Positions 7,200 through 38,796 of a stretch of 53,999 nucleotides of DNA are shown here, in pieces. The translations under genes were made by a program, and so were the position numbers. The notes under the pieces are model-generated. The model was given only the letters and a program-made list of their open reading frames with translations, searched no databases and was not told where the DNA came from. Source of the DNA: Chitinispirillaceae bacterium (GTDB taxonomy: Bacteria > Fibrobacterota > Chitinivibrionia > Chitinivibrionales > Chitinispirillaceae); NCBI GenBank assembly GCA_016932075.1, contig JAFGDP010000060.1:1-53999 (forward strand), read 5' to 3'. Position 1 is the stretch's first letter; each line of letters begins with the position of its first letter.

Positions 7200-8183
7200 A
7201 TGATCGTTTTTATCAAAGCATATGTGAAATCGATGCGGCTCTATTACTCGTTTGTGACGGGTATTGCGGGCTGGATCGGGGTGGCCTACTACGAATACCT
7301 TGCGAACAATCCCCTGGAACGGTCAATTGAAACTCCCGCGCCGGCGGAAAAAAAACTGGTCATACTGGTACTGCTCTTTCTGAGCTGGGGAATCAACCAG
7401 ATCATCAATGACTACCTTGGCCTCAAGGAAGACCGCATCAATGCGCCGCACCGTCCCATGGTCACGGGAGAGCTGCATCCACAGGCAGCGCTTGCGCTCT
7501 CCATCGCGCTCATCGGGGCTTCGGCCGCGGTCACCTGGTTCTATCTGGAACCGGTCGCAATCATCTTTCTTCTGGCAGGCGTGCTTCTCAACATAGCGTA
7601 TGAGTGGGCAAAAGGGTACGGTATGCTCGGCAACATCGTTTTCGGGCTTATGATCACCATGGCCCCGCTCTTTGGCGGGTACGCGTCCGGTCCCACCACT
7701 TCGACCGTGCTTCTGCCGCACCGGGTGTCGGTCCTTGTCCTGGTATGGGTCATGAACGCGCTCATGACCTATTATACTTATTTCAAGGATTATATGGGGG
7801 ACAAGGCAGCGGGAAAGCGGACCCTGGTCGTCTCGTTCGGACTGGCCAGGTCACGCTGGCTCTCGATTGCGTCGGCGTTTCTGCCCACCCTGCTATTCGT
7901 GTTTCTCCGGATTTCCGGGCTTCACCAGACGCCTCTTAACTCGACCTTTATCATCCTTGGCGCGCTCACGGTATTTCTGCAAGTGTGGACCGGCGTGCTC
8001 TACTTCCGTTTCCCCACCGGACAGGGAGCCTACGCCTCGCTCGTTACCAATTTCCGCGCCTGCACCTGCGGTCAGGCCGCGCTTATCGGCATTTTCAATC
8101 CTGACCTGGCCATCTGGCTCTTTATTTTTTCCTATATATTCGTCGGATTCCTGTTCGACTTCCACCGCGACAGCCAGCAGTGA
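7200..8183 (+). CDS. UbiA-family prenyltransferase
   Basis: Polytopic membrane enzyme of 327 residues, the usual UbiA length, expected to attach a prenyl chain to an acceptor. Motif 1 reads NDYLGLKEDRINAPHRP (residues 70-86): N70, D71 and D78 are kept but the middle position of NxxxDxxxD is Gly74. Motif 2 is DYMGDKAAG, a regular DxxxDxxxG. About eight to nine hydrophobic helices are visible. The acceptor could be a quinone precursor, glycerol phosphate or something lipid-like; nothing here distinguishes these. It is the first gene of an operon running to 16407, followed after 15 bases by the next gene. Its ribosome site is weak (AGGCAGG). Confidence 0.85.
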   Translation: MIVFIKAYVKSMRLYYSFVTGIAGWIGVAYYEYLANNPLERSIETPAPAEKKLVILVLLFLSWGINQIINDYLGLKEDRINAPHRPMVTGELHPQAALALSIALIGASAAVTWFYLEPVAIIFLLAGVLLNIAYEWAKGYGMLGNIVFGLMITMAPLFGGYASGPTTSTVLLPHRVSVLVLVWVMNALMTYYTYFKDYMGDKAAGKRTLVVSFGLARSRWLSIASAFLPTLLFVFLRISGLHQTPLNSTFIILGALTVFLQVWTGVLYFRFPTGQGAYASLVTNFRACTCGQAALIGIFNPDLAIWLFIFSYIFVGFLFDFHRDSQQ

Positions 8184-8198
8184 CGGAGCGTCGTCGCC

Positions 8199-9416
8199 AT
8201 GCAGGTATTTGAAAACGCATCCCTCGGCTCCTTGACCATCCCCAACCGGATCATCCGCAGCGCCACGTTTGAAGGCGGATGTGACGGTGCGGGCCGTCCA
8301 GCCGGACCGTATGAACTTCTGTACCAGCGCCTGGCGCATACAGGTATCGGCGCGATTATCACCGGATTCGCATTCACGCAAAAGCATGGGAAAGCCATGC
8401 AGCCCGGGCAGGCGGGAATCGATTCCGATGACGCAATTCCGGCTTTTTCGCGCATAACCGCCATGGTGCACGGCCATGGCGGCCGCATCATCATGCAGAT
8501 CGCGCATGCGGGCAGGCAGACCATTTCCGAGGCAACAGCCGGCCCGGTATATGGCGCAAGCGACAGGCGTTCGCCGTATTTCAGGAGCAGGCCGCAGCGG
8601 CTTACGATCCCGCAGATCGAGACTATTATCGAGGGATTCAGCCGGGCCGCGCTCCGCTGCCGGGAGGCCGGCTTTGACGGCGTGCAGCTCCATGCTGCTC
8701 ATGGCTATCTTATTCATCAGTTTCTTAACCGGGCGGTCAACGATCGCACCGACCTTTTCGGTATTGATAAGGACAGCGGGATCGGCACCGCATTTCTCGG
8801 CCGGATCATACGCCGTGTGAGGGAGCTTTGCGGCGCGCGGTTTCCGCTTCTTGTCAAGATCAGCGCCGGCGACGAGTACCGCCGCGGCATGACCGGCGAG
8901 CCGTTCCTTTCCCTGGTTCGTTTCCTAGACACGCAGCCCGTCGACGCGATCGAGGTCAGCTGGGGCACCATGGACCATGCCCTGAACATCTTCAGGGGCA
9001 AAACCGTTCCGCTCAAGGCCATCCTTGACCATAATCCGCGCTACGGTTCATCGAATCCGCTCGTACGGCGGGCGTTTACCAGCTTCGTGTTTCCGCTGCT
9101 GCGTGCACGGTTCAAGCCGTTCTCCCCGGCCTACAACCTGCCGCATGCGCTGGCCGCAAAAAAACACACGCGGCTCCCGGTCATCTGCGTGGGCGGGTTC
9201 AGGTCAAGACAGGAGATCATCAACGCCATTGAACAGGAGGGAATCGATTTTGTCAGCGCGTGCAGGCCGTTTATCAACGATCCCGGCTTCGCGAATAAAC
9301 TGCGCAACAATCGAAATCATCTATCGCCGTGCATTGACTGCAACCGCTGCGCAATCATGTGCGACGCAGGCCGGCCGACCCGCTGCTACGCGCGTCCGGC
9401 TGTCAATAACCCGTAA
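8199..9416 (+). CDS. Old-yellow-enzyme-like NADH:flavin oxidoreductase, single barrel with Fe-S motif
   Basis: A 405-residue FMN-dependent TIM-barrel reductase that would reduce a conjugated C=C bond. Visible blocks are IPNRIIRSAT at the start, MQIAHAGRQ, VQLHAAHGYLIHQFLN and VGGFRSRQE near the phosphate-binding loop, all typical of the family. The C-terminus has PCIDCNRCAIMCDAG, the cysteine spacing for the [4Fe-4S] cluster found in 2,4-dienoyl-CoA-reductase-type members, but the second NAD-binding flavoprotein domain of those enzymes is absent, so electrons must come from elsewhere. An insertion around residues 275-310 is unlike short homologues. Located between the prenyltransferase and the acyl carrier protein, so its substrate may be an unsaturated lipid intermediate (inference). 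Confidence 0.87.
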   Translation: MQVFENASLGSLTIPNRIIRSATFEGGCDGAGRPAGPYELLYQRLAHTGIGAIITGFAFTQKHGKAMQPGQAGIDSDDAIPAFSRITAMVHGHGGRIIMQIAHAGRQTISEATAGPVYGASDRRSPYFRSRPQRLTIPQIETIIEGFSRAALRCREAGFDGVQLHAAHGYLIHQFLNRAVNDRTDLFGIDKDSGIGTAFLGRIIRRVRELCGARFPLLVKISAGDEYRRGMTGEPFLSLVRFLDTQPVDAIEVSWGTMDHALNIFRGKTVPLKAILDHNPRYGSSNPLVRRAFTSFVFPLLRARFKPFSPAYNLPHALAAKKHTRLPVICVGGFRSRQEIINAIEQEGIDFVSACRPFINDPGFANKLRNNRNHLSPCIDCNRCAIMCDAGRPTRCYARPAVNNP

Positions 9417-9431
9417 ACGGAGGAACGTTCC

Positions 9432-9689
9432 ATGAATTGTGAACGGAAAGTGGTGGAGCTGATCCGCTCCAACATCGAGAAGAAATACGCGGTCACGCCA
9501 AAAAGCGACCTGCGCGAAGACCTTGAAGTGGATTCGTTCGGCACCATTATGATCGTCAACGCGATCGAAGACGAGTTCAACATCGTGGTGGAGGAGCAGG
9601 ACATCAAAACAATGGTCCGCGTGTCGGACATCGTCAACCTGCTCGAACAGAAATACCTCACACCGGTGACGCCTTCACATGACGCCTGA
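9432..9689 (+). CDS. Acyl carrier protein
   Basis: An 85-residue carrier protein. The phosphopantetheine serine is S35 in LEVDSFG, followed by the acidic helix II (VNAIEDEFNI) and the VSDIVNLLEQKY helix expected of the fold. The usual DSL is DSF here, as in some specialised carriers. GGAGG lies 8 bases upstream of the ATG. Its stop codon overlaps the start of the alpha-oxoamine synthase by 11 bases, which suggests the two proteins are made together and that the carrier hands its acyl chain to that enzyme, as AcpR does for serine palmitoyltransferase in Caulobacter (known) and is proposed here. Confidence 0.93.
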   Translation: MNCERKVVELIRSNIEKKYAVTPKSDLREDLEVDSFGTIMIVNAIEDEFNIVVEEQDIKTMVRVSDIVNLLEQKYLTPVTPSHDA

Positions 9690-10863
9690 GCGGCTCTATA
9701 CGACCCTTGCGCCGGACCTCTCGCTCGCCGAAAAGATAGGATTCAATCCCTACTATCAGAAGATAACGCGCGGCGGGCAGGGAAAGCTCACCATCGCGGC
9801 GACCGGCCTGTTCGATCTGGCGTCGAACGACTATCTCGGACTTGCGACTGATCCGCGCGTGACCGCTGCCATGAGCGACGCGTCGCATCGTTACGGCGCC
9901 TCGTTCTGCGGCACGCCCATAGCCGCCGGGTACGCCGCTGTTCTTGCCGAGCTTGAATCCGCCCTGGCCGGCATGACCGGTTGCGAGGCTGCGGTCATCT
10001 TTCCCTCCTGCTATCAGGCCAACTGCTCGCTGTTCGGCTCCATAGCCGATGCCCGCGACGCGATCATCGTCGACCACTATGCCCACGCCTCGCTGGTGCA
10101 GGGCATACGGTCAAGCGGCGCGCGCGTCAAGCCGTTTCTGCACAATGACCTCGATCATCTGGAGAAGCAGCTTGCCGCATCAACAACGTTCCGCAGGCTG
10201 TTCGTGGTCACCGAATCGGTCTTCTCAACCGAGGGAAGCATTGCACCGTTTGATCGTATCGTCCGCCTGTGCAGGCGCTACCATGCCGTGCCAATAATTG
10301 ACGATTCGCACGGTATCGGCGTGATCGGCAAAGGCGGACGCGGTGTTCTGGAGCACTGCGACATTCGTGACTTCGATGGAATCTACACCGCGTCGCTCGG
10401 CAAGGCGCTCGCTAATACGGGCGGCGTGATCGCGGGCAGACGGGCCCTGATTGACTATCTTCGCTACACCTGTCCCGGGCTTATCTATTCGACCGCGCTC
10501 GTGCCGGCCAGCGCGGCGGGACTGCTCGCCGCGCTGGCCATCGTGATACATGAATTTCCCCGGCTCGGTAAGACAATGTGGAGCAACCACCAAAAACTGG
10601 TAACCAGCCTCAATGGCGCCGGCTTCTCGCTCAAAGCCGGCGAAGCGCCCATCGCTTCGGTCATGTGCGGTCCGTCTGAAACTACCCTTGCATGCGCAAA
10701 GCAGCTCTTCGAGCAGGGGATCCTGTCAACGCCGTTTATCCCTCCTTCGGTGCCGGAGAATCAGGGTGTGGTCAGGCTGATCATTGGCGCGAAAACCGAT
10801 GACGCGGGCATGGAACAAATCGGCGAGAGGATCATGACCGCCGGGCAAAGGACGCAGGCATGA
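9679..10863 (+). CDS. Alpha-oxoamine synthase (serine palmitoyltransferase / AONS / KBL family)
   Basis: PLP enzyme of 394 residues that condenses an amino acid with an acyl thioester with loss of CO2. The family residues are all present: FDLASNDYLGL near residue 45, the stacking histidine in DHYAHAS (H136), the PLP aspartate in DDSHGIGV (D208), and the Schiff-base lysine in ASLGKALANTGG (K242). The N-terminus GFNPYYQKI resembles the GxxPYFRPI block of serine palmitoyltransferases rather than that of biotin-pathway AONS. No biotin genes are near; an acyl carrier protein, ketosynthase, SDR and lipid kinase are. A sphingoid-like base synthase is therefore the favoured reading, with 2-amino-3-ketobutyrate ligase or a pyrrole-forming synthase as alternatives. 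Confidence 0.86.
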   Translation: MTPERLYTTLAPDLSLAEKIGFNPYYQKITRGGQGKLTIAATGLFDLASNDYLGLATDPRVTAAMSDASHRYGASFCGTPIAAGYAAVLAELESALAGMTGCEAAVIFPSCYQANCSLFGSIADARDAIIVDHYAHASLVQGIRSSGARVKPFLHNDLDHLEKQLAASTTFRRLFVVTESVFSTEGSIAPFDRIVRLCRRYHAVPIIDDSHGIGVIGKGGRGVLEHCDIRDFDGIYTASLGKALANTGGVIAGRRALIDYLRYTCPGLIYSTALVPASAAGLLAALAIVIHEFPRLGKTMWSNHQKLVTSLNGAGFSLKAGEAPIASVMCGPSETTLACAKQLFEQGILSTPFIPPSVPENQGVVRLIIGAKTDDAGMEQIGERIMTAGQRTQA

Positions 10864-11810
10864 ACTGCTTCGTTATTATCAACCCGCACGCGCGTAACGG
10901 CCGCGCAAAGAAAATTGTTCCACGGCTTCTGCGTCTCCTTGAACAAACGTCGCTCTCCTATGACTGGAAGTACACTGACTCAATGGAGCACGCGTTTCAT
11001 CTGTCGCAGAAAGCGCAAAAGGAAAACTACGACATCGTCGTCGCGGTCGGCGGCGACGGCACCATCAACCGGGTTCTGAACGGGTTCTTTGACGCATCGG
11101 GGCACCGGATCTCGCGTGCCAGACTGGGAGTCATCCATACCGGTACCAGCCCTGACTTCTGCAAGAGCCATGGTATCCCGCGGTCGCTCGAACAGGCGGT
11201 ACAGGCGCTGTCCCAAGGCACGACCTCGCTTGTGCGTGTGGGCATGATCACCTGCGCGTCATCGCCGGGTGCCGCGGACTCCAGGCCGCTTTTCTTCGGC
11301 TGCTGCGCCAATATCGGCCTGGGCGCTTCGCTTGCGCGCCGTGCAAACAGCGGCATCAGGAAATACTGCGGCGACACTGCCGGCACCTTTATTTCGCTCC
11401 TCCAGGTGTTATCCCGTCATAAGCCCGCCACGGTTTCCCTGAGCATCGATGGAAACCAGCGCACCCTCCACAAGGTGTATGACATCGCCGTGGGCATGAC
11501 CCGTTACATCGCGTCCGGAATACAGGTCCGCCATCAGCTCGGACCGCTTGACGACCGTCTCTACGTTGTCACGGTGAAGGAACTGACTCCGGCAAACACC
11601 GCCGGCGTTCTGCGATTGCTGTACGCCGGAAAAGACATTCCTGCCGGGAAACAGGAGATCTCGCTCGACTACGGTCACCGGATCGACTGTTCGTGCGAGG
11701 CGCCTCTTGAAGTCGAATGTGACGGCGATCCTGCCGGGTTCTGCCCCTGCACCATCGCCACGGTACCGGACGTTCTTGAACTGATCGTGGGAATCAGCCA
11801 TGCCCGGTGA
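10860..11810 (+). CDS. Diacylglycerol/sphingosine kinase-like lipid kinase
   Basis: A 316-residue member of the DAGK_cat / LCB5 superfamily, which phosphorylates hydroxyl groups of diacylglycerol, ceramide or sphingoid bases. FVIINPHARNG opens the chain and the nucleotide loop VAVGGDGTINRVLNG contains GGDGT at residues 64-68; the next block is HTGTSPDFCKSHGIP in place of the commoner GTGNDFAR. ATGA overlap with the upstream synthase and an 11-base overlap with the next gene indicate coupled translation. In a locus with an oxoamine synthase and SDR, a ceramide- or sphingoid-phosphate product is plausible; this is inference from neighbours, since the family itself does not fix the substrate. 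Confidence 0.86.
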   Translation: MNCFVIINPHARNGRAKKIVPRLLRLLEQTSLSYDWKYTDSMEHAFHLSQKAQKENYDIVVAVGGDGTINRVLNGFFDASGHRISRARLGVIHTGTSPDFCKSHGIPRSLEQAVQALSQGTTSLVRVGMITCASSPGAADSRPLFFGCCANIGLGASLARRANSGIRKYCGDTAGTFISLLQVLSRHKPATVSLSIDGNQRTLHKVYDIAVGMTRYIASGIQVRHQLGPLDDRLYVVTVKELTPANTAGVLRLLYAGKDIPAGKQEISLDYGHRIDCSCEAPLEVECDGDPAGFCPCTIATVPDVLELIVGISHAR

Positions 11811-12804
11811 ATATGAGATCATCAACCAGCTCTGCAGCCTGCTGCCGCAGGGCCGCGACAACACGGCGCATGAATCAGACTGCGAGATCATCAGGCTGGG
11901 CGGCGAGCAGTACCTGTTCACCACCGACGAGTTCAGCGGTGAAGACCGGTTCATTGAAAAAAACGGTTCGCTTCTGGGCTGGAACGTTGCGGCAGGCGCT
12001 TTGAGCGACATCTACGCCTGTGGCGGCACGCCGCTCTATTATGCGCATGCGCTGACCATCGGCGCGTCATGGGACATGCCGTTTATCCGCCAGTTCGGCA
12101 GAGGCGTGGCAGCGGCGCTCACCGCATCGGGCGCGAAAAGCATTGGCGGCGATTGCGGCAGCGCTGACGCGTGGCGCTGTACCGCGACCGTGATCGGCGC
12201 GTGCGAAGGCAGACCGCTCACCCGGAAGGGCGCGCGGCCCGGTCATGGCATTTACCTCACCGGACGGATCGGCCGTGGCAACATGCAGGCCGCCCTCTCC
12301 CTCATGCCCTTTCAAAAGCTGCCAATGCCCGACCTGTCAGGGATAAAATTTCCCCTGCGCATGAAAGAGTCGGCGCTCATCAAACGGTACGCCTCATCGT
12401 GCATTGACACGAGCGACGGCGTGTTCAGGGCGCTTTCCATAATCGCCGACCTTAACGGGTGCGGCTATGCGATTAAGCACCTGCCCTTTGACCGTGCCGC
12501 AGCGCTCCTCGCACAGGCGGCTTTCCTCCCGCGCATCATGCTGTTCTTCGGCGAATGCGGCGAATACGAGCTGCTCTGCACGGTTCCGCCCGAATGCGAG
12601 CGGCGGTTCCTCTCCAAGGCCCGAGCGCAGCGCCTGCATCTCCACCGCATCGGTACGATAACCGAACAGGGCAGGCAGGCAACCGAAGGCACCACGACCC
12701 TCGACCTCTCGACCCTTGACCTCGAAGCCCGTCGTTTTCCCGATACGCGCGCCTACGTGCGTGCGCTGTCCGCATGGGTTAAAAAACCGGGAGCGCAAAA
12801 ATGA
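11800..12804 (+). CDS. ThiL / AIR-synthase-related kinase-like protein
   Basis: A 334-residue protein with the PurM-like two-domain fold of thiamine-monophosphate kinase. Recognisable segments are TTDEFSGED (ThiL: DxxVEGVHF region), GWNVAAGALSDIYACGG (ThiL: AxSDLAAMGA), SIGGDCGSAD (GGDT region) and SSCIDTSDGVFRAL (DxSDGL). Spacing resembles ThiL, but several metal and substrate residues differ, and no thiamine genes are nearby. I infer a substrate other than thiamine phosphate, probably an intermediate of the surrounding operon. It overlaps the next gene by 4 bases (ATGA). Confidence 0.72.
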   Translation: MPGEYEIINQLCSLLPQGRDNTAHESDCEIIRLGGEQYLFTTDEFSGEDRFIEKNGSLLGWNVAAGALSDIYACGGTPLYYAHALTIGASWDMPFIRQFGRGVAAALTASGAKSIGGDCGSADAWRCTATVIGACEGRPLTRKGARPGHGIYLTGRIGRGNMQAALSLMPFQKLPMPDLSGIKFPLRMKESALIKRYASSCIDTSDGVFRALSIIADLNGCGYAIKHLPFDRAAALLAQAAFLPRIMLFFGECGEYELLCTVPPECERRFLSKARAQRLHLHRIGTITEQGRQATEGTTTLDLSTLDLEARRFPDTRAYVRALSAWVKKPGAQK

Positions 12805-14075
12805 CGCATAGGGTGGTTATTACCGGCATCGGACCGGTGACCGGGACCGGCATCGGCATTGAACCATTCTGGCAGGCGATTCTGCGGAAAAAAAGCGCTG
12901 TTGCGCCGGTTCCCGCGACCTATGACCAGAACGGCACCCTGCATTCACGGTGGTATGCGCCCATGCCGCACGTCTCCCTGTCCGAATACGACATTCGCGT
13001 CCCCTTTGAAAAAATCATGCAGCACAGCGACCGCATGGCGGTGCTCGCCGCGCGACTGGCGCTTGAAGACGCCGGATTCCACCTCACGGGCGCCGAAAAC
13101 GGCATCACCGTGCAAAATCTTGACTCGTGCAGCATACTCCTTGGAACCGGCATCGGCAGCTTGGAGCTCGCGTTCGATTCCAGTTTCGCACAGCGCCTGC
13201 CCAGGGAGCTCCATGACCGCCTTCCTTCGCAAAAAAAAATCAGATTCCATCGCACAGTCATTCCCGCGACCATGCCCAATGCGCCGGCGGCCTGGATCTC
13301 GATCTGCTTCAACATCCACGGACAGAGCGCGACAATAAACGCGTCCTGCGCCTCGGGAACCGTTGCCATTGGCGAGGCGCTGCGCAGGATCAGGCACGGG
13401 TATGATACCATGGTGCTGGCCGGCGGTGTTGACTGTCTGCGCGACGAATACGGCGCGATCATGCGCGGCTTCGACATGCTCGGCGCGCTCACGCGCTCAA
13501 GTGACGGTCTTCCCCGGCCCTTTTCGCGCGACCGGAGCGGGTTTCTCTTTTCCGAAGGCGGCTCCTGCGTACTGGTGCTGGAATCGTTTGATCACGCGCG
13601 CTCCCGGAACGCCCGGTTGTATGCGGAGCTGCTTGACTATCATTCGTGCAGCGATGCAAGCGGTATCGTGCAAATGGAAGGGAACGGCACACAGATCACG
13701 AGGCTTCTGCGCGCAAGCGCGCACGGCCGCGCCATCGACTACCTTAACGCGCACGGCACCGGTACTGCCATGAGCGACGCAATCGAAGCCAGAGTCATCA
13801 GAAGCGTGTTCGGCGACAAGGAGCGGCAGCCGCTCATCAACTCCACCAAGGGCATTCTCGGCCACACGCTCGGCGCAAGCGGCGCATTGGAAGCCGCCGT
13901 ATGCGCGATGTCGATCAGAGGCGATCTCGTGCACGGTAACCTGACCGATAATCCCCTTGACAACCTTCACCTGCCTATGGATTCTGTCGAGCATACCGTA
14001 AACACCGCGCTCACGGTTTCGTACGGTTTCGGCGGCCACAACGCGGCGCTTGTCCTGGAAAAAGCTCATGAATAA
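12801..14075 (+). CDS. Beta-ketoacyl-ACP synthase (FabF type)
   Basis: Condenses malonyl-ACP with an acyl thioester. At 424 residues it has normal FabF length and a complete Cys-His-His triad with lysine: NASCASGTVAIGEAL (C183), NAHGTGTAMSDAIEA (H318) and STKGILGHTLGASGALEA (K350, H355). The N-terminal half is less like housekeeping FabF, with an insertion around residues 100-170. It is embedded in the nine-gene operon, so it probably elongates or builds a dedicated acyl chain on the nearby carrier protein rather than serving general fatty acid synthesis (inference). Coupled to both neighbours by short overlaps. Confidence 0.9.
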   Translation: MTHRVVITGIGPVTGTGIGIEPFWQAILRKKSAVAPVPATYDQNGTLHSRWYAPMPHVSLSEYDIRVPFEKIMQHSDRMAVLAARLALEDAGFHLTGAENGITVQNLDSCSILLGTGIGSLELAFDSSFAQRLPRELHDRLPSQKKIRFHRTVIPATMPNAPAAWISICFNIHGQSATINASCASGTVAIGEALRRIRHGYDTMVLAGGVDCLRDEYGAIMRGFDMLGALTRSSDGLPRPFSRDRSGFLFSEGGSCVLVLESFDHARSRNARLYAELLDYHSCSDASGIVQMEGNGTQITRLLRASAHGRAIDYLNAHGTGTAMSDAIEARVIRSVFGDKERQPLINSTKGILGHTLGASGALEAAVCAMSIRGDLVHGNLTDNPLDNLHLPMDSVEHTVNTALTVSYGFGGHNAALVLEKAHE

Positions 14076-15102
14076 AACAGTGCTCGTCACCGGCGCCACC
14101 GGCTTTATCGGCTCCCATGTCGCGGAAGCCCTCGCCGACCGCGGGTACCGCTGCGTTGCGCTGGTTCGCGACCCTTCGCGGCTATGCCCTGAACTCGTTG
14201 GGCGGGTCGAAACGCGCATCGGTGATATCCGCGACAAAGAATCACTGATACACGCGTCACGCGGCTGCTCATCGATCGTCCATGTTGCGGGACTGTCGAG
14301 CGACTGGGGAGCGTATGCTGATTTTTACGAAACAAACGTGACTGGCACGCTCAATGTCCTTGACGCATGCAGCCATAACCGCATCGGCCAGGCTATCATC
14401 ACCGGCTCTATTTCGTCTTACGGCGAAGAGAACAGCGGTATCATCAAGAACGAGACCTTTCCGTTCAATTCCCACTATCCCTATTTCCTCGATTCGCTGC
14501 TTCCCTGCCGCATGAACTGGTACCGCGACACCAAAGCGGAGGCAACGCAAAAGGCAATGGCCATGGCACGCTCATGCGGCATCGACTGTACGGTGATCGA
14601 GCCGGTATTTGTCTATGGCGAGCGTGAATTTTCAAGCGGGTTCTATACCTATGCCAAATCGGTCAAGGGCGGGATGCGGTTCATGCCCGGATCCAAAATA
14701 AACCTTTTTCATCTGATATATGCGGCTGATTGTGCCCGCGCTTATGTGCTTGCGCTTGAAAAAAAGCTCGGGGGCGTGGAGCGGATCCTGATCGGCAATC
14801 CCGAGCCGCAGCCCATGCACCGGATCTTCTCGCTCTTTTGCGCCGAAGCGGGAGTTGCGCCGCCCCGCATGCTCCCGAAATGGGTTTTCTACGTCCCCGC
14901 GCTCGTCCTTGAAATCGCGGCAACGCTCATGCGCAGCAGAACGCCGCCCCTTCTTACCCGGGGCCGTGTAAACATGTTCTATGACTCAATCGGTTATTCC
15001 ATACAGAAAGCACAGGAGCTTCTGGATTTTTCCTGCGAATACACCCTGGAGCAGGGAATCAGAAAAACCGTGCGCTGGTACCGTGACAAAGGGTATTTAT
15101 AG
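14068..15102 (+). CDS. Extended SDR, NAD(P)-dependent epimerase/dehydratase family (CerR- or 3-beta-HSD-like)
   Basis: A 344-residue Rossmann oxidoreductase. GATGFIGSHVAE (residues 9-20) binds the dinucleotide; VHVAGLSSDWG, GSISSYGEE and WYRDTKAEATQ (Y152, K156) supply the catalytic Ser/Tyr/Lys. The C-terminus PKWVFYVPALVLEIAATLMR is hydrophobic, as in membrane-associated 3-beta-hydroxysteroid dehydrogenase-like members. Caulobacter and Bacteroides use an extended SDR (CerR) to reduce the 3-keto group of a ceramide precursor; the position beside an oxoamine synthase suggests a similar keto reduction here. The start at 14068 overlaps the ketosynthase stop; an in-frame ATG 18 bases earlier is less likely. 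Confidence 0.86.
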   Translation: MNKTVLVTGATGFIGSHVAEALADRGYRCVALVRDPSRLCPELVGRVETRIGDIRDKESLIHASRGCSSIVHVAGLSSDWGAYADFYETNVTGTLNVLDACSHNRIGQAIITGSISSYGEENSGIIKNETFPFNSHYPYFLDSLLPCRMNWYRDTKAEATQKAMAMARSCGIDCTVIEPVFVYGEREFSSGFYTYAKSVKGGMRFMPGSKINLFHLIYAADCARAYVLALEKKLGGVERILIGNPEPQPMHRIFSLFCAEAGVAPPRMLPKWVFYVPALVLEIAATLMRSRTPPLLTRGRVNMFYDSIGYSIQKAQELLDFSCEYTLEQGIRKTVRWYRDKGYL

Positions 15103-15114
15103 AACCGAGGGACC

Positions 15115-16407
15115 ATGGTCAGGATCAAAACCGTAACCGGCGTGTGGCGCATGCTCTTTCTGCTGCGGCTGCACATTATAATCTTTTTCCATTATGTTCC
15201 TGCTGTCGTTTCCGGCCGCCTGACACCTGCGCGGTTCCTGATCCTGCTGCGGCGTCTTCTCCTTTTTCTTTCAAGGCTCCGTCACAACAAATTCGTCATT
15301 ATAGACGGCGCGACCCGGCTCGATCTCTATGTGCCCTCGTTTCCAGGAAAAGCGTTCTACACCGCATGCGACAAGTTTACCGTGTTCGACCGCAGGCTTC
15401 CGTGTGTGACCGCGCTGGTATCGGTCACCTCCGCGTGCCGGTTCGACTGCGCCCATTGTTATCAGAAACGCGACATGGGAAAGGACGTGTCCATAGATTT
15501 GCTCGTGTCCGCAGTCCGCACGCTCCAGGACCACGGGGTGGCTTTTTTCAATATCGAGGGCGGTGAGCCGTTTCTGGCTTATGACCGGCTGAAAAAAATA
15601 TGCGCGTCCATTGACCGGCGCAGCGAAGTATGGGTCAACTCCACGGGTGACGCCATGACGCCCCACCGGCTCAGGGAGCTCAAACGGCTCAACCTGACCG
15701 CGATCATGTTCTCCCTGCACACGGCCGACCCAGCGACACTCAATGCGTTCATGGGCTCGGAAACGGCCTGGCAGAAACTCGAACAGGGGATCGCGTTCTG
15801 CCATGAAACCGATGTCCCGGTATCGTTTAACACCTGCATACCCAAGCAGGACTTTTTCAACGGCCGCTTTGACGCGATCATGGAAAAGGCAAAAGAGTTC
15901 GGCGCCTGCCTCGTGCAGCTCATCAAGCCCAAGCCTGCGGGCGGGCGCATGGAACTGGGCGTTGAATCCTATACCGACAAGGAGACCTCTCATATCACCG
16001 GAATGGTGAACCGCTACAACCATGATCCGCGCTATCGCTCCTATCCGCCCATTGCTGCGCAGTTTATCGAAGAGTCGCCAAAGGTATTCGGATGCACAGC
16101 CGGCGGCACAGACCGGTTCTATATCAATGCCAAAGGCGATGTGCAGCCGTGCGAATTCCTGAACATCTCATTCGGAAATATCGCACAGGAAGATTTTCCA
16201 GTAATCTATGACCGCATGCGCGCCTGCTTTGATCCTCCGGGCCAGACCTGGTTGTGCGAGGGGTATGCGCAGAAAATCGCGGCACTTGCACAGGACGCGG
16301 TTGCATTGCCACTGGACCTTGAAACATCAAAACAGGTGTATGAAACATGGGACCGGGGGAAAGAGACGGAACTGTATCAAAAGGTCGGGAATATTAACAG
16401 AGGATAA
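15115..16407 (+). CDS. Radical SAM protein with SPASM-like C-terminus
   Basis: A 430-residue radical S-adenosylmethionine enzyme. The [4Fe-4S] motif is SACRFDCAHCYQ (C108, C112, C115); FNIEGGEPFLAY is the GGEP SAM-binding strand. Toward the C-terminus, GCTAGGTDRFYINAKGDVQPCEF matches the start of a SPASM/twitch auxiliary cluster, with a further cysteine at WLCEG. The first 60 residues form a hydrophobic arm (LRLHIIIFFHYVPAVV) that may anchor it to the membrane, fitting a lipid substrate. GAGGGACC precedes the ATG and the gap to the previous gene is 12 bases. It is last in the operon. Its reaction is unknown; peptide modification is less likely because no precursor peptide is seen. Confidence 0.87.
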   Translation: MVRIKTVTGVWRMLFLLRLHIIIFFHYVPAVVSGRLTPARFLILLRRLLLFLSRLRHNKFVIIDGATRLDLYVPSFPGKAFYTACDKFTVFDRRLPCVTALVSVTSACRFDCAHCYQKRDMGKDVSIDLLVSAVRTLQDHGVAFFNIEGGEPFLAYDRLKKICASIDRRSEVWVNSTGDAMTPHRLRELKRLNLTAIMFSLHTADPATLNAFMGSETAWQKLEQGIAFCHETDVPVSFNTCIPKQDFFNGRFDAIMEKAKEFGACLVQLIKPKPAGGRMELGVESYTDKETSHITGMVNRYNHDPRYRSYPPIAAQFIEESPKVFGCTAGGTDRFYINAKGDVQPCEFLNISFGNIAQEDFPVIYDRMRACFDPPGQTWLCEGYAQKIAALAQDAVALPLDLETSKQVYETWDRGKETELYQKVGNINRG

Positions 16408-21467: not shown

Positions 21468-22361
21468 TCACCTTGCCCCGTCCCAAAACTCTTCCGGACA
21501 CGACTGGACATGATCCGGCTGCGGGAGTACTAGCGAACGCGGCGCGCAGTCGAGCGCTCTGCGGTAAAAACGTTTCCCTGCTTCGGTATCGTTGAGGCAG
21601 AAGCTGACCATGGCGCCGGCAAGGAGCACGCGCCAGCGGCGGTAGCGTTCAGGCGCTCTGTCAAGCGAGGCGAGCGAGGAGACAAGCAGGTCTTTGGCCT
21701 GGCTATGGCTTCCCTGACGGTAGGCAATGAGCGCGCGATAGTAGTCGACCTGGGCCATGCCGTTCCATGACTTCGCTTTTTTATAGCTTTCATGCGCGCG
21801 GTCGAGCCAGGCAGAGGCTTCCGGGATGCGGTTTTTGAGCAGTGATAGCAGGGCCTGGACCGTGAGCCAGAACGCGGTTTCGTTTCCTTTTTGTAATTGC
21901 TGCGGCCTGCCGGTCCTGTACCAGGCGAATGCACTGTCATACATGCCGCTGCGGCAATAGACCAGCGCCATGAATCCTGCCGCGATTCCGGCGTTCCGCG
22001 GGTCGTTGTAAAAGCTGTATTCCCGGTATGCGGCTCCGAATGCCTCACCCGCGCTGTCAAGGATTCCCAGTTCGTACCAGGCCCTGCCGATATTGAACAG
22101 GTACCGGGCCTGCAGGAGCGGCAGGTCCGTTCGCGCGGCAGAAGCATACGCCTTTCGGTACTCCTTAATCGCGCCGGTCATGTTTCCTTCATTAAAAAGC
22201 TGCGATGCGCGCGACCCGTACATGCGCGCCGTTGAACCGGGATCGACCTTTTTCCCGCCGCAGGAAAGCAGTGCGAAAACAGCGATAATGCCGATAACGG
22301 CAACACCGAAAAAAATGCTTATCAATCTGCAATCTGCAATCTGCATTCTGCATTCTTTCAT
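21468..22361 (-). CDS. TPR-like lipoprotein
   Basis: An exported 297-residue protein with a lipobox (FALLSCGG, Cys about residue 34) and successive helix pairs typical of tetratricopeptide repeats: AARTDLPLLQARYLFNIGRA, YELGILDSAGEAF, AYRQGSHSQAKDLL, RRWRVLLAGAMVSF. Such proteins scaffold complexes at the inner face of the outer membrane. The first dozen codons (KECRMQIADCRL) are written in a heptamer repeat, GCAGATT, that also begins the dispersed repeats at 28954 and 32129. Its GTG/ATG start overlaps the stop codon of the MCE gene, with AGGA 9 bases upstream, so it is probably the last gene of the Mla-like operon. Confidence 0.75.
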   Translation of the reverse strand: MKECRMQIADCRLISIFFGVAVIGIIAVFALLSCGGKKVDPGSTARMYGSRASQLFNEGNMTGAIKEYRKAYASAARTDLPLLQARYLFNIGRAWYELGILDSAGEAFGAAYREYSFYNDPRNAGIAAGFMALVYCRSGMYDSAFAWYRTGRPQQLQKGNETAFWLTVQALLSLLKNRIPEASAWLDRAHESYKKAKSWNGMAQVDYYRALIAYRQGSHSQAKDLLVSSLASLDRAPERYRRWRVLLAGAMVSFCLNDTEAGKRFYRRALDCAPRSLVLPQPDHVQSCPEEFWDGAR

Positions 22362-23281
22362 CACGGTTCATCCTTGAGCATTTTGTCCTCGGGCTTCCCG
22401 ACCGCCTGGCGCACGAGCCAGTTTTTCTGCAGGCCGCGCATCATCACCTCGGCCTGGTTCAGGTTGTCCTGCACCTGGTCCATCATGGGCGCGAAATCGC
22501 CCGACACCTTTTTCACGTTGTCCATGATGACCGTTGCGTCGCCCAGCGCCTTCTGCACCGTGGCGAGCATAATGGTGACCGAATCGACCAGGGTCGCGCC
22601 AAGGACGCCGGTCCTGTTTAACGTGCCGAGCAGGGAGTCGACCTGTGCCATCATGCGCGTGGACTTGAGGGTTATGGCGTTTACGTTGCCGACAATTGTC
22701 TGGACCTGGTTGATCAGGGTGTCCTCGGCAAGCAGCCTGCCCAGATTGCCCTTGCCGCCCGCGATCTGGCGTATGATAAGGTCCACCTGCTCGACCATGC
22801 CCGCGATCTGGCCGGTCATCCTGTCGATCCGAAACGAATAGTCGCCTTCGAGCGTGTCCCCGTCATGTGCTATTCCGGCCGAATCGCTGCCGCCGGTAAG
22901 CTGGACCTCCCAGTCGCCGACCACCAAGTTTTTCTGGTTGAGCATGGCGCGGGTGTCTTTCCTGATGAAATCCCGGTAGGTCGGATCAACCTTGAAGGTG
23001 ACGTCGATGCACCCTTCGCGCACCAGTGTCACGCCGTCGACATGGCCGATGGCCATGCCGGAAATGCTTACATTGTTTCCCTTTGCCAGGCCCATGTTCT
23101 GGTCGTACAACGCATGGAACCGGACCCACTGCTTGAACAACTGGGACTTGATGAGCGTGTACGAAAGCAGCGCGGGAATGACCAGGAGCGGGATGAGTAC
23201 GAACAGGCCCACGAAAAAGGAGCGGTGCCGCCTGACAAACGAATCGCGCGTGTGTCTGACCGTGTGTATTTTTTTAGTCAT
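22361..23281 (-). CDS. MlaD-like MCE-domain protein
   Basis: Periplasmic lipid-binding subunit of an MCE transporter, 306 residues. A basic N-terminus and one transmembrane helix (residues about 20-45) are followed by an MCE domain: VRFHALYDQNMGLAKGNNVS, ISGMAIGHVDGVTL, NQKNLVVGDWEVQLTGG. The remainder is a long helical region (residues about 160-290) rich in heptads, as in other MCE proteins that form hexameric tubes. Encoded 52 bases downstream of the ATPase-like gene and overlapping the TPR lipoprotein gene. In E. coli, MlaD hexamers sit on the MlaFE transporter and move phospholipids between membranes. Confidence 0.88.
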   Translation of the reverse strand: MTKKIHTVRHTRDSFVRRHRSFFVGLFVLIPLLVIPALLSYTLIKSQLFKQWVRFHALYDQNMGLAKGNNVSISGMAIGHVDGVTLVREGCIDVTFKVDPTYRDFIRKDTRAMLNQKNLVVGDWEVQLTGGSDSAGIAHDGDTLEGDYSFRIDRMTGQIAGMVEQVDLIIRQIAGGKGNLGRLLAEDTLINQVQTIVGNVNAITLKSTRMMAQVDSLLGTLNRTGVLGATLVDSVTIMLATVQKALGDATVIMDNVKKVSGDFAPMMDQVQDNLNQAEVMMRGLQKNWLVRQAVGKPEDKMLKDEP

Positions 23282-23333
23282 AATCAGCTACCCGTATAGC
23301 ATCAATAATACACTAGTTTCCCGTAAAAAGGTC

Positions 23334-24017
23334 TTATACCATGCCCGGATCGTACGGCGACAATACTCCGGCTTCAAGCACAAGACGCTGCACCGGCAGG
23401 CCGGTCCAGATGTCCTGGTCATGACAGATCATGATAATGCCCATGGAGGTCCGTTTCCACCGGTCTTCAATGATATTGAGCAGCCCCTGCGCAGTACCGG
23501 GATCAACTCCGCCGATTGGATCGTCGAGCAGAAGCATTGACGGCTCATTGATGAGCGCGCGTGCCAGCGCCGCGGCCCTGCTTTGAAACGCCGACAGCGC
23601 CTCAGGATAATGGGTGTCAACATTGAACAGCAGCAACTCTTCCATAAGATCACGCACCCGTCTGTCGATCTCCTCGTCGCTGCACAGCCCCCGGCTCCGC
23701 AGCGGCAGGGCGATGTTTTCAAACACCGTAAAGTTTGAAATGAGGGCGCCGGTCTGGAACATGTAGCCGATGGACTGCCGGAGACGAAGCTGCTCTTCCC
23801 TTGCCATTGATGCGAGGTCCGCGCCGTCCCATTTCACCGATCCGAACTTTGGAACAAGAAGCCCGACACAGATCTCGAGCAGCGTGCTCATGCCGTTGCC
23901 GCTCTTGCCGCTGATGACCGTGATCCGGCCGCGCTGTGCCGTGAGGTTGACATTCCTCAGTATCGGCATTGGTCCGTACGCGAACATGATCCTTTCCATT
24001 GCAATGCTATCGGGCAT
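23334..24017 (-). CDS. MlaF-like ABC ATPase with degenerate nucleotide-binding motifs
   Basis: ABC subunit homologous to MlaF, 227 residues, intact frame. Walker A reads SGKSGNGMST: the invariant lysine is Met43. The signature is LSAFQ (141-145) in place of LSGGQ, and Walker B ends LLLDDP, with Asp166 where the catalytic glutamate belongs. The Q-loop (Gln88), D-loop (VDP) and H-loop (CHD, His199) remain. A protein like this should hydrolyse ATP poorly or not at all, so it may be a structural or regulatory subunit, or the transporter has lost activity. The start at 24017 (ATG, GGTGG 5 bases before) overlaps the permease stop by 11 bases; a GTG 9 bases earlier is possible. Confidence 0.86.
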   Translation of the reverse strand: MPDSIAMERIMFAYGPMPILRNVNLTAQRGRITVISGKSGNGMSTLLEICVGLLVPKFGSVKWDGADLASMAREEQLRLRQSIGYMFQTGALISNFTVFENIALPLRSRGLCSDEEIDRRVRDLMEELLLFNVDTHYPEALSAFQSRAAALARALINEPSMLLLDDPIGGVDPGTAQGLLNIIEDRWKRTSMGIIMICHDQDIWTGLPVQRLVLEAGVLSPYDPGMV

Positions 24018-24822
24018 AAAAACCACCCATCACCATGATCACGGTTACGATGACACTGACGACGATGATGCCGGTCATGGAGCCGACGACCGACTTAATC
24101 GCGGCCTGCGGCACGCCGCGGATCGTGGCAACCTTGAGCCCGTAATGGCAGCTCACTATTGCGATGATCACGCCGAAAATCGTGCTCTTCAGCGTTGAAA
24201 TCAGGATATCGACCCAGGTGAACGCGTCAAGCACCTTCGTAAGGAAAATGGCGAACGGCACATCCACGGTAAAACTCGCCACGATGAGACCGCCGACAAT
24301 CGCGACCATGTCAAAGTAAACGTTAAGACAGATCATGGCGCCGACCATGCCGGCGAGCGCGGGCATAACAAGGAAATAGACCGGATCAATGCCCATGACC
24401 TCGAGCGCCGCCACCTCCTTGTTCACGCGCATGGTGCCGATATGGGACGCCAGGGCCGCGCCGCTCCTGCCGATCACCACAATCGAGGTGAAGAACGGCC
24501 CGAGCTCCCGCACCACCGCGATCACCAGAATATTGCCGAAGTATTCGGAAACCCCGAACTTCGGCATATTGGTCATGGCCTGCATGATGATGGTGCTGCC
24601 GGCAACGAACGCGATGGCGCTGACCAGCCAGAAGGCCTCCACGCCGGTATAGAGCATCTGGCGGGAAAACTGGCTGAACACCGCCACGATCGACGCCCGC
24701 GTCGGCCGCATGAGAATGCCCAGCGTGGTGAAAAACAGGCTGCCGATCTCGACAAGGTTGGCGCCCGACTCGATCGTGGTCCTTCCGGTCTGGGTGATGC
24801 TGCGCACCAGAAACGTCCGCAT
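24007..24822 (-). CDS. MlaE-like permease
   Basis: Inner-membrane permease of the MCE/Mla family, 271 residues. Characteristic segments are FTTLGILMRPTRAS, VAGSTIIMQAMTNM, VVRELGPFFTSIVVIGRSG, ALASHIGTMRVNKEVAALEVMG and FTWVDILISTLKSTIFGVII, with five to six hydrophobic helices. GGGAG lies 4-5 bases before the ATG at 24822, which is 1 base from the end of engB. Order engB-mlaE-mlaF-mlaD-lipoprotein suggests one transcript. The family moves lipids between the membranes; direction and cargo here are unknown. Confidence 0.92.
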   Translation of the reverse strand: MRTFLVRSITQTGRTTIESGANLVEIGSLFFTTLGILMRPTRASIVAVFSQFSRQMLYTGVEAFWLVSAIAFVAGSTIIMQAMTNMPKFGVSEYFGNILVIAVVRELGPFFTSIVVIGRSGAALASHIGTMRVNKEVAALEVMGIDPVYFLVMPALAGMVGAMICLNVYFDMVAIVGGLIVASFTVDVPFAIFLTKVLDAFTWVDILISTLKSTIFGVIIAIVSCHYGLKVATIRGVPQAAIKSVVGSMTGIIVVSVIVTVIMVMGGFYAR

Positions 24823-24823
24823 A

Positions 24824-25411
24824 TCACTCCCTCGTCCAATTGGTAAAACGCTCCCAGAACAGCTCCCTGCATGCCTGATCGCGGCTGGAGACGAGAAGCG
24901 GCTCTTCAAACGCGGTGAATCTGCGCATGAATGCTGTTTTCCGGTTCTGGCGCTGGCCATGACCCAGTTTGTCGGCCTTGGTAAGGAGCGGCAGCACCGG
25001 ACGCTTCAGGCACGCGAGCCATTCGTATGCCTGACGGTCCATGTCCGTGTCAATATGCCTGCAGTCCACAAACCAGATGATGCCGGCCAGCGATCCGCGT
25101 TTTTCGCAGTAGTCGCGGATAAGCCTTGAGCAGCGTGACTTTTCATCGGATGCCTTTCTGGCGAATCCATAACCTGGCAGATCGACCCAGAACACGGTTT
25201 CATCGATGGCGTAGAGATTCGCACAAACTGTCGTTCCTGGTGTTTTTGAGGTCCTCGCAAGTGTTTTATTGGCGCATACATGGTTGATAAACGTTGATTT
25301 CCCCACGTTCGACCTGCCCAGGAGCGCATACTCTTTTTGCACGGGCGGCGGCAGATCGCGCATGACACCGGCGGACAGGACATACCTGGCGTTTTGATAC
25401 GGCGTGTGCAT
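24824..25411 (-). CDS. engB: Ribosome biogenesis GTP-binding protein EngB/YsxC
   Basis: A 195-residue cytoplasmic GTPase for large ribosomal subunit assembly, normal length for the family. G1 is GRSNVGKSTFIN (residues about 32-43), the switch region SKTPGTTVCANLY follows, G3 is DLPGYGFARK and G4 is LLTKADKL. It is the first gene of a leftward run that continues into the Mla-like genes. A divergent promoter region of about 200 bases separates it from trpD. Confidence 0.93.
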   Translation of the reverse strand: MHTPYQNARYVLSAGVMRDLPPPVQKEYALLGRSNVGKSTFINHVCANKTLARTSKTPGTTVCANLYAIDETVFWVDLPGYGFARKASDEKSRCSRLIRDYCEKRGSLAGIIWFVDCRHIDTDMDRQAYEWLACLKRPVLPLLTKADKLGHGQRQNRKTAFMRRFTAFEEPLLVSSRDQACRELFWERFTNWTRE

Positions 25412-37023: not shown

Positions 37024-38796
37024 ATGAAACTACTCATCGCCAAAACAGCCGGTTTCTGCATGGGCGTGAAACGCGCAGTCGACCTGGCGCTTGAAAACGC
37101 GGGCAAGGTGCAGGGCGGGCTCAAAACCATCGGGCCGCTGATCCACAACCGTCAGACGGTCGAGATGCTCAAGGCGCGCAGGGTGGTCGAACTAAATGAG
37201 GAAAAACAAGGGGGCGATCCGCAGACGCTGCTTATCCGCGCCCACGGCATCCCGCCGGAGAAACAGGAGCGGTTCGTACGGAAAGGCCACACCATCATTG
37301 ACGGCACGTGCCCGAAGGTGAAGACCGTTCATAAGGTGATCGCACGGTACCGCTTGCTCGGGTATTCGATCGTCATCACCGGGGATGAAGGCCATGCCGA
37401 AGTGGTTGGCCTGCTCGGGTATGCCGGTGATGAAGGAAGGCTTATCCACTCGGTCCAGGAGGTCGAGACGCTTCCCGAGCTGGCGAAAATATGCCTGGTA
37501 TCACAGACCACGTTTGACCGTACGGTATTCGACCAGATCGCTGATGCGATCCGCCGCCGGTTCACGGCCGCCGATATCGTGGTGAAGAAAACCATCTGCG
37601 CCGCCACCGAGCAGCGGCAGGAAGAGACGAAGGCGCTTGCCAGGCAGGTGGACGCGCTCATCGTGGTCGGCGGAAAAAACAGTGCAAACACGCAGCGTCT
37701 TGCCACGATTGCCAGCGCATGCGGCACGCCGACCCAGCTCGTTGAAACCGAGCAGGAAATCGACTGGAACAGTATTGCAAAGTGCAAGATGGTGGGAATC
37801 ACGGCGGGCGCCTCGACCCCGAACTGGATGATCAAACGGGTCACCGACTATTTGCAGTTCATGGACCAGACCCAGAAGCGGACCGTCCCCAACCTCATGT
37901 TGCAGGCGTTCGACATCGTTGCGAACTGCAACGTGTTTGTCGCCCTGGGAGCGGTGGCGGTATACTACGTCTCCTGCAGGCTCCAGGGATTCGCATTCAA
38001 CCTGAGTGGCGCCGCGGTATCGTTCCTCTACTTTTTATCGATGTATCTCTGGAATAGCCTGACGAGCATTGAATCGACCGCGCACCATGGCATCTCACGG
38101 TACCGGTTTTACGAGCGCCACAAGCGGTCCCTGTTCCTTCTGGCGGTCGCCGCTATTGCCGCGCTCCTTATTGTGAGTTATTCGCTCGGAACACAGGCGT
38201 TTTTCATCATGCTGTTCGCCACTGCCGCAGGCTCGGCCTACCATGCGACCATCGTTCCAAAGTTTCTGCGCTCCCTCCTGCGGTATAAAAAACTCAAGGA
38301 CATTCCCACCTCGCGCGACCTTTTTGTGGCCCTGGCGTGGAGCACGGTCATAACCTTCATACCGCAGGTGGTGAGCGGCGTGTTTTCGCTCAATCAGCTT
38401 GTTGCCGCCTGCTTCGGCTGGATTTTCATTCTCGCGTTCCTTCGTTCGCTCATCTTCGATCTCCGCGACATCGAAGGCGACCGGATCATGGGCAGGGAAA
38501 CGCTCATCACCATTGTGGGCGAGCAGCGCGCGCGCACCGCTATCTATCTGATCACCGGGACCTGCGTGACGCTCCTGGCGCTCATACCCTGGCTTGCCGG
38601 TCTCGAGGAGCACCGGCAGGAGAGCACGCTCCGTTTCCTTTCGCAGATACCCGCGCTCCTCTATGCTGCTCTTTTTGTCAAACTCAATCCCCGGCTCAAA
38701 TCAAAAGTGCCGGCAGTGTTCAATGTCCTTGCCGACAGCCTTCTGTATCTGGCCGGAGCCGGCGCGCTGATTTCATTCGTCGTGGCGGGTGAATAG
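37024..38796 (+). CDS. ispH: IspH (HMBPP reductase) fused to a UbiA-like membrane domain
   Basis: A 590-residue fusion. Residues 1-285 are a complete IspH, the last enzyme of the MEP isoprenoid pathway: cluster cysteines C12 (TAGFCMGVKRAV), C96 (DGTCPKVKTVH) and C192 (KTICAATEQRQ), substrate histidines H41, H74 and H124, and TAGASTPNWMI near the end. Residues about 295-590 are a nine-helix UbiA-like domain. Its second aspartate motif is kept (FDLRDIEGDRIMG: D479, D482, D486), but at the first motif N344 is followed by Ser348 and Thr352 in place of the aspartates of NxxxDxxxD, so prenyl transfer is doubtful. The fusion may dock isoprenoid synthesis to the membrane. The ribosome site is weak. 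Confidence 0.88.
   Translation: MKLLIAKTAGFCMGVKRAVDLALENAGKVQGGLKTIGPLIHNRQTVEMLKARRVVELNEEKQGGDPQTLLIRAHGIPPEKQERFVRKGHTIIDGTCPKVKTVHKVIARYRLLGYSIVITGDEGHAEVVGLLGYAGDEGRLIHSVQEVETLPELAKICLVSQTTFDRTVFDQIADAIRRRFTAADIVVKKTICAATEQRQEETKALARQVDALIVVGGKNSANTQRLATIASACGTPTQLVETEQEIDWNSIAKCKMVGITAGASTPNWMIKRVTDYLQFMDQTQKRTVPNLMLQAFDIVANCNVFVALGAVAVYYVSCRLQGFAFNLSGAAVSFLYFLSMYLWNSLTSIESTAHHGISRYRFYERHKRSLFLLAVAAIAALLIVSYSLGTQAFFIMLFATAAGSAYHATIVPKFLRSLLRYKKLKDIPTSRDLFVALAWSTVITFIPQVVSGVFSLNQLVAACFGWIFILAFLRSLIFDLRDIEGDRIMGRETLITIVGEQRARTAIYLITGTCVTLLALIPWLAGLEEHRQESTLRFLSQIPALLYAALFVKLNPRLKSKVPAVFNVLADSLLYLAGAGALISFVVAGE

Follow-up and report, generated by a model that had tools for sequence, protein, structure and literature searches.

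The nine consecutive genes at positions 7200–16407 of contig JAFGDP010000060.1 (assembly GCA_016932075.1) from a Chitinispirillaceae bacterium form one co-conserved biosynthetic unit, and appear to encode a dedicated pathway to an amino-lipid, a fatty and probably membrane-bound product. The stretch of DNA analysed, referred to here as the window, comprises positions 1 to 53,999 of the contig (53,999 nucleotides). As a tentative proposal, which we think more apt to need revision than to stand whole, this would be an additional class of lipid pathway based on an oxoamine synthase, found with at least five of its families in 16 named phyla, in which two unrelated kinases acting in series convert an amino-lipid alcohol to a diphosphate for transfer by a UbiA-type enzyme with a rebuilt metal site, leading to an undescribed lipid class. 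An initial annotation of the window had proposed a sphingolipid-like operon with prenyl-type and radical chemistry; the amino-lipid outline of that proposal stands and a sphingolipid-like product is plausible, but its identification with an established sphingolipid pathway is not supported, the synthase scoring below the serine palmitoyltransferase (SPT) cut-offs and lying outside the SPT rows of our tree.

All nine ORFs are on the forward strand and either overlap by 4–11 bases or are separated by 12–15 bases (+15, +15, −11, −4, −11, −4, −8 and +12 in gene order), so that their coordinates bear out the compact same-strand arrangement, with gaps of 15 bases or less, described at the outset. 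Every product matches Pfam above the curated cut-off, the labels being UbiA, Oxidored_FMN, PP-binding, Aminotran_1_2, DAGK_cat with YegS_C, AIRS with AIRS_C, ketoacyl synthase, Epimerase, and Radical_SAM with SPASM. For none of the nine is an NCBIfam cut-off reached among the matches listed (the best 25 of 28 for the ketosynthase, of 42 for the dehydrogenase/reductase and of 31 for the radical SAM protein), and each is thus a divergent member of its own family. As previously noted, there is no N-acyltransferase or acyl carrier protein synthetase among the nine, which are as follows.

7200–8183, +, UbiA-superfamily intramembrane transferase (PF01040, 102.2 bits; cut-off 34.2)
8199–9416, +, old-yellow-enzyme (OYE)/FadH-type flavin reductase (PF00724, 154.8 bits)
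9432–9689, +, acyl carrier protein (ACP), attachment Ser35 (PF00550, 27 bits)
9679–10863, +, alpha-oxoamine synthase of a separate clade (Aminotran_1_2; tree; conserved residues)
10860–11810, +, DAGK/YegS-family lipid kinase (PF00781, 88.6 bits; PF19279, 46.4 bits)
11800–12804, +, ThiL-like kinase (AIRS and AIRS_C)
12801–14075, +, FabF-type ketosynthase (KS) with C183/H318/K350/H355 (PF00109/PF02801)
14068–15102, +, extended short-chain dehydrogenase/reductase (SDR) with Y151-x3-K155, residue 1 being the codon at 14071 (PF01370, 113 bits); the ATG at 14068 is taken as the start, the ORF list also giving an upstream TTG at 14050
15115–16407, +, radical SAM/SPASM protein with an N-terminal helical extension (PF04055/PF13186)

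Related loci were collected with the ThiL-like protein as the probe (254 homologues at E<=1e-20, 120 of them listed), and the best 80 of 106 confirmed loci, 79 of them distinct, were taken from a scan of named species genomes; the co-occurrence counts are therefore conditional on the ThiL-like gene, and many loci are metagenome bins. Families were detected with profiles made from the initial matches, pieces of split genes being counted once, and the family alignments hold rows of at least 80 % length and 35 % identity (any identity for ACP); alignment A1 contains 28 of the ThiL-like homologues, and set A2 contains 27 of 30 listed loci together with the window. All nine families are present on one strand in 37 of the 79 loci, 31 of which have the window order and six a single rotated order (ThiL-KS-SDR-rSAM-UbiA-OYE-ACP-AOS-DAGK, with the synthase as AOS), so the co-conservation proposed earlier as a check on the operon is indeed found in other genomes. 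Among the 44 loci that have at least five families and are not cut at their edges, 32 carry all nine, and the synthase, UbiA, radical SAM and ThiL-like genes (the last by selection) are in all 44; DAGK is in 43, the exception (L064) being fragmented. The UbiA gene of locus L016 is located several kb upstream of its remaining cluster genes. Loci with at least five families span 16 named phyla, with 21 in Bacillota, 13 in Bacteroidota, 5 in Omnitrophota, 4 in Ignavibacteriota, 3 in Fibrobacterota and 1–2 in each of eleven others; two further loci lack a phylum. Named isolates and one complete chromosome (Petroclostridium sp. X23, L026) are included. A small helix-turn-helix protein, a candidate regulator, is encoded directly upstream of UbiA in 17 Bacillota loci (for example L005:4698–5159; Pfam was run on one).

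The nearest whole-genome relative found (G227, locus L147) comes from the same phylum as the Chitinispirillaceae locus L069 and carries the nine genes in order with 59–81 % protein identity; closer proteins (78 % and 86 %) were seen only on short metagenome contigs. DNA similarity to L147 extends over window positions 7209–12588 and 12789–16399, ending at the operon edges. In each of the nine genes identity is 41–55 % at third codon positions and 76–92 % at second positions, a pattern that argues for constraint at the protein level. The cluster radical SAM gene is present in 15 of 29 Desulfosporosinus genomes and, within the Fibrobacterota group, in 4 of 167; the pathway is patchily distributed and was probably spread by transfer. 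A COX1-family match is absent from 14 of 22 cluster-bearing genomes and present in the other eight; a link to low oxygen is thus a tendency only, and a pathway confined to anaerobes is not supported.

The synthase has the residues expected of the alpha-oxoamine synthase superfamily. N50, H136, D208, H211, K242 and R366 are invariant in 53/53 aligned cluster synthases, among them the three (H136, D208 and K242) already reported as intact, and we take these positions to include the pyridoxal phosphate Lys, the His and Asp, and the carboxylate-binding Arg. Its best-scoring NCBIfam model, BioF (TIGR00858), gives 306.9 bits, yet this is below the cut-off of 426.45; the models for 2-amino-3-ketobutyrate ligase (KBL) give 229.1 of 493 (TIGR01822) and 270.5 of 460 (PRK06939), and three SPT models give 257.2, 214 and 163.2 bits against cut-offs of 640, 500 and 670, compared with 716 bits for a Dyadobacter SPT. 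When PDB sequences were searched using phmmer, KBL 1fc4 was the top match (195.6 bits) with SPT nearly level (191.3). A quick tree, with SH-aLRT support only, was built from the window synthase and 33 of 52 qualifying cluster loci, hand-picked for spread, together with 11 named reference rows (5 KBL, 4 BioF and 2 SPT) that are NCBIfam-labelled paralogues, the paralogues coming from ten genomes, eight with the cluster and two of Dyadobacter. All 34 cluster synthases fall together in a single clade (SH-aLRT 100; stem 1.47 changes per column), from which the KBL rows and the SPT rows stand apart as separate clades; the four BioF rows do not group as a clade, and next to the cluster clade, with a support of only 81, stand two Dyadobacter paralogues without a family label. 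Firm grouping with KBL or 8-amino-7-oxononanoate synthase (AONS), the outcome named at the start as counting against the lipid reading, was not seen, and identity with KBL or AONS is rejected on the below-cut-off scores and the tree; neither do the curated models or the tree support SPT. Judged by sequence, the cluster synthase fits none of the named families (KBL, BioF, SPT).

Several positions set the cluster synthases apart. T79 is present in 53/53 and T184 in 52/53 of them, and both are in 0/25 other rows. P80 is present in 53/53, the 11 named reference rows all having Arg there, but it is not unique to the clade, since 4 of 10 unclassified paralogues and locus L072 also have it; Ser180 likewise occurs in one of four BioF rows and three of ten unclassified rows. 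We presume that T79 may match the position of Thr83 in glycine-specific aminolevulinate synthase, which makes glycine, as a guess, one candidate amino acid. The CFB-type SPT model, the only one used for this count, was above its cut-off in none of 22 cluster-bearing genomes (the next-highest scores being 582 and 488 of 640) and in both Dyadobacter genomes.

Two unrelated kinase genes follow the synthase gene. The DAGK homologue has both DAGK_cat and YegS_C, its GGDGT motif is conserved in 59/59 aligned proteins, and its nearest solved relative is DgkB (57.5 bits), sphingosine kinase 1 giving merely 22 bits. The ThiL-like protein scores 140.2 bits on TIGR01379 (cut-off 184.15), and in its sequence profile ThiL structures lead, with 112.5 bits against 57.8 for SelD. 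It has the ThiL fold and largely keeps the acidic residues, which we take to have metal and ATP roles (the structural alignment of the model covers residues 1–316). An above-cut-off ThiL (253–322 bits) is encoded elsewhere in three of eight cluster-bearing genomes searched (G004, G006 and G009) and in both Dyadobacter genomes, and this, with the below-cut-off score, rules out a housekeeping ThiL. On the best reading its product acts after DAGK, as the second of two kinases in series, which the initial annotation did not propose.

A second type of cluster bears on this point. Dyadobacter locus L074 (9917–14940) has, in one run, genes for the ThiL-like protein, DUF3419 (which we take to be BtaA-like), one protein of no assigned family, DAGK and UbiA, with no adjoining synthase; locus L072 (9920–16169) has the same kind of run together with an oxoamine synthase, and is filed under Williamsia, is Dyadobacter-like in its cluster genes and is perhaps misbinned. 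Among 148 genomes sampled within the order, this arrangement was found in one, namely the seed itself, and is thus not widespread. The two runs indicate that DAGK, ThiL-like and UbiA genes go together in two backgrounds, and the synthase, DAGK, ThiL-like and UbiA genes recur as a set though the remaining genes differ.

The UbiA protein has its nearest solved structures in DGGGP synthase (42.6 bits) and chlorophyll synthase (36.3 bits). Its first Asp-rich motif, N70-D71-Y-L-G74-L-K-E77-D78, has the form N-x3-G-x3-D in place of N-x3-D-x3-D. G74, which by motif spacing corresponds to the catalytic D66 of MjDGGGPS, is present in 58/58 aligned cluster UbiA proteins including that of the window, and Asp is at the equivalent position in both other UbiA proteins examined (L120 and L121). 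The second motif, K196-D197-Y-M-G-D201, is retained (D197 in 57/58, D201 in 58/58). On these motifs the first metal site of the operon UbiA may be rebuilt relative to that of DGGGP synthase. Elsewhere in the window (37024–38796, +) a 590-residue ORF has both an IspH/LytB domain (290 bits) and a UbiA-type one (40.6 bits; cut-off 34.2), a fusion of an isoprenoid enzyme with a putative prenyltransferase.

The other genes are less constant. Eight of the 44 untruncated loci lack KS, and five of these eight (L043, L051, L073, L070 and L078) lack ACP too; the remaining genes of L043 and L051 adjoin directly, and nothing replaces the two. Since the remaining genes are kept, KS and ACP look like an optional chain module, without which the synthase may draw acyl chains from general metabolism. 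The initial annotation had the two build a dedicated acyl chain; neither is essential to the pathway. Their tested residues are conserved (all four of the KS Cys-His-Lys-His site in 52/52 and the ACP attachment Ser in 46/46). The KS scores 264.1 bits on the fabF equivalog (cut-off 493.75), and ACP is also absent from L060 and L064, both fragmented. At the usual place of KS in Mangrovibacterium lignilyticum (L041:11008–13215) there is a carbamoyltransferase (Carbam_trans_N and _C).

The OYE gene was not found in L008 and L024, or in the fragmented L060 and L064. Its product has a C-terminal Cys cluster (C378, C381, C384, C388 and C396) that suggests an Fe-S centre; C378, C381, C384 and C396 are present in 53/55 proteins, the other two having a gap, and C388 in 49/55. 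The SDR Tyr and Lys are conserved in 61/61, and its best NCBIfam model among the matches listed is HpnA (131.4 bits; cut-off 367.65). Its scored absences are not true losses, since L060 has a single ORF for SDR and radical SAM together, and the SDR is present and divergent in L070 and L078. These last two loci (Armatimonadota and Kiritimatiellota) have UbiA, radical SAM, DAGK, ThiL-like, OYE, synthase and SDR genes in a different order, and their synthases lie outside the main cluster clade. The six tested Cys of the radical SAM protein (C108/C112/C115 and, in SPASM, C327/C346/C381) are conserved in 59/59. In its predicted structure (pLDDT 90.5) helices at residues 9–32 and 38–53 precede the barrel and may hold the protein at the membrane; a Foldseek search gave general matches only, the top one by E-value being the RiPP maturase SkfB (TM 0.53/0.58), followed closely by viperins and other proteins. 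Thus in the synthase, the kinases, SDR, KS, ACP and the radical SAM protein the catalytic residues tested are conserved.

We infer the following course, including every substrate, the order of the steps and the diphosphate relay. KS and ACP would supply or lengthen an acyl chain. From this chain and an amino acid the synthase would form an alpha-amino-ketone, which SDR would reduce to an amino-alcohol. The DAGK homologue would phosphorylate the hydroxyl group, and the ThiL-like kinase would attach a second phosphate to the first, in the manner of ThiL acting on thiamine phosphate. The resulting lipid diphosphate would be used by UbiA, a member of a family that acts on diphosphates; tailoring of the product would fall to OYE, by reducing an enoyl or enone group, and to the radical SAM protein. 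The whole relay, from amino-alcohol lipid to phosphate, diphosphate and UbiA, is a serious candidate that we place a little short of probable. We favour it because DAGK, ThiL-like and UbiA genes recur together in two cluster backgrounds, and because ThiL-type chemistry is indicated by the lead of ThiL structures in the profile, the conserved acidic residues and the separate presence of a true ThiL. Phytol salvage, with VTE5 and VTE6, is a precedent for activation by two kinases ahead of a UbiA enzyme. The UbiA step has its own precedent in Rv3806c, a UbiA-fold enzyme that uses the non-prenyl donor PRPP (PMC10994848).

A rather doubtful possibility is a prenylated sphingoid-like lipid, in which a phosphorylated sphingoid base arises through the synthase, SDR and DAGK as it does in sphingolipid synthesis, UbiA adds a cellular polyprenyl group, the ThiL-like kinase phosphorylates a second site and OYE saturates the prenyl chain. 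The two closest solved relatives of the UbiA protein both use prenyl diphosphates, as this requires, and the ceramide kinase CC_1160 of Caulobacter presumably belongs to the DAGK family. That kinase is an established activity (PMC11324152), and with no CFB-type SPT above cut-off in the 22 cluster-bearing genomes the cluster synthase could fill the SPT place. However, the synthase is below all three SPT models and outside the SPT rows, a CerS-type N-acyltransferase is absent among the nine, the UbiA protein lacks the motif-1 Asp, and the recurrence of DAGK, ThiL-like and UbiA as a set is left unexplained. An alkyl-pyrrole, pyrroline or similar nitrogen heterocycle lipid is improbable; here KS would provide a beta-keto chain and the synthase an amino group, and the ThiL-like protein, having the AIR-synthase fold, would close the ring with ATP and without phosphate transfer, but ThiL leads by sequence and the acidic residues are largely kept, KS is dispensable while the other genes stay, and DAGK and UbiA have no part to play. 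We regard as very unlikely a redox cofactor or quinone-like carrier, made by UbiA and radical SAM, to which the long chain is merely an anchor: UbiA enzymes do make quinones, the radical SAM/SPASM protein and Cys-rich flavin reductase suggest redox tailoring, and most of the cluster-bearing genomes lack COX1, but eight have it, an aromatic-precursor enzyme is absent among the nine, and the patchiness of the radical SAM gene within Desulfosporosinus is unlike that of a core electron carrier. Chance neighbours or a decaying remnant without joint function, in favour of which nothing was found, are scarcely credible, given the order kept across phyla, the conserved catalytic residues and the sharp operon edges of the similarity to L147.

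A lipid pathway common to cultured Desulfosporosinus, Bacteroidota, Omnitrophota, Fibrobacterota and others would offer a new biomarker candidate. The public names thiamine-monophosphate kinase, 7-keto-8-aminopelargonate synthetase-like enzyme and glycine C-acetyltransferase are unsupported by the curated cut-offs for the window proteins and should be corrected. The cluster is also relevant to a question still open, namely which of the oxoamine synthases found in anoxic waters produce sphingolipids; in the parts drawn on, Ding et al. set aside synthases outside the Spt-like clade as divergent in activity and report CerR or bCerS near the Spt-like gene in 0/33 Cloacimonadota metagenome-assembled genomes (PMC11334938). 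The genes flanking the operon look unrelated, with an Na/Ca exchanger upstream and an opposite-strand ORF downstream. About 6 kb from the operon (22361–24960, −) three ORFs resemble, by eye, a lipid-transport set of Mce/MlaD, ABC ATPase and permease.

The initial annotation knew of no described pathway with this gene set, and, by title and abstract start, none of the papers listed in searches of the open PMC literature aimed at the cluster describes the set or its product, that literature leaving most subscription papers and all bioRxiv preprints outside. Sphingolipid synthesis in Caulobacter employs Spt, AcpR, AasR, CerR, CerS and the ceramide kinase CC_1160 (PMC11324152) and shares with the operon an SDR, a lipid kinase and an oxoamine synthase that has a dedicated ACP; in contrast, the operon synthase is in a different clade with changed active-site motifs, CerS and AasR are not among the nine, and KS, ThiL-like, UbiA, OYE and radical SAM are added. 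The first step of sulfonolipid synthesis is similar in that an oxoamine synthase joins an acyl group and an amino acid (PMC9304779). The solved cysteate-C-fatty acyltransferase 28eh is a distant match to the operon synthase (143 bits). We know of no other sulfonolipid genes in common with the operon, and of no UbiA or ThiL-like protein in the sphingolipid cluster of Pseudomonas fluorescens. To judge from the title of the report, the polyketide-synthase-derived sphingolipids of that organism resemble the proposed product in combining polyketide-type chain building with an oxoamine synthase (PMC12134224). Archaeal DGGGP synthase is the nearest solved relative of the operon UbiA (PMC9385802), which differs in having, by motif spacing, Gly for the motif-1 Asp in all 58 proteins; an archaeal-type ether lipid pathway is ruled out, since GGGP synthase is absent among the nine. 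The ebo operon likewise comprises several genes conserved as a unit, among them one for an atypical UbiA, and has a product not established (PMC5133447), but its other families, as given in the part of that paper drawn on, are not among the nine, and identity with it is ruled out by the EboC model (25.4 bits; cut-off 250). The match of the operon UbiA to the model for mycobacterial Rv3806c is very weak (20.5 of 234 bits) and the Mg ligands of Rv3806c, Asn73 and Asp77, have the N-x3-D spacing; the two nevertheless share the UbiA fold, and in its phosphoribosyl transfer Rv3806c works with a lipid phosphate and with a diphosphate donor that is not prenyl (PMC10994848).

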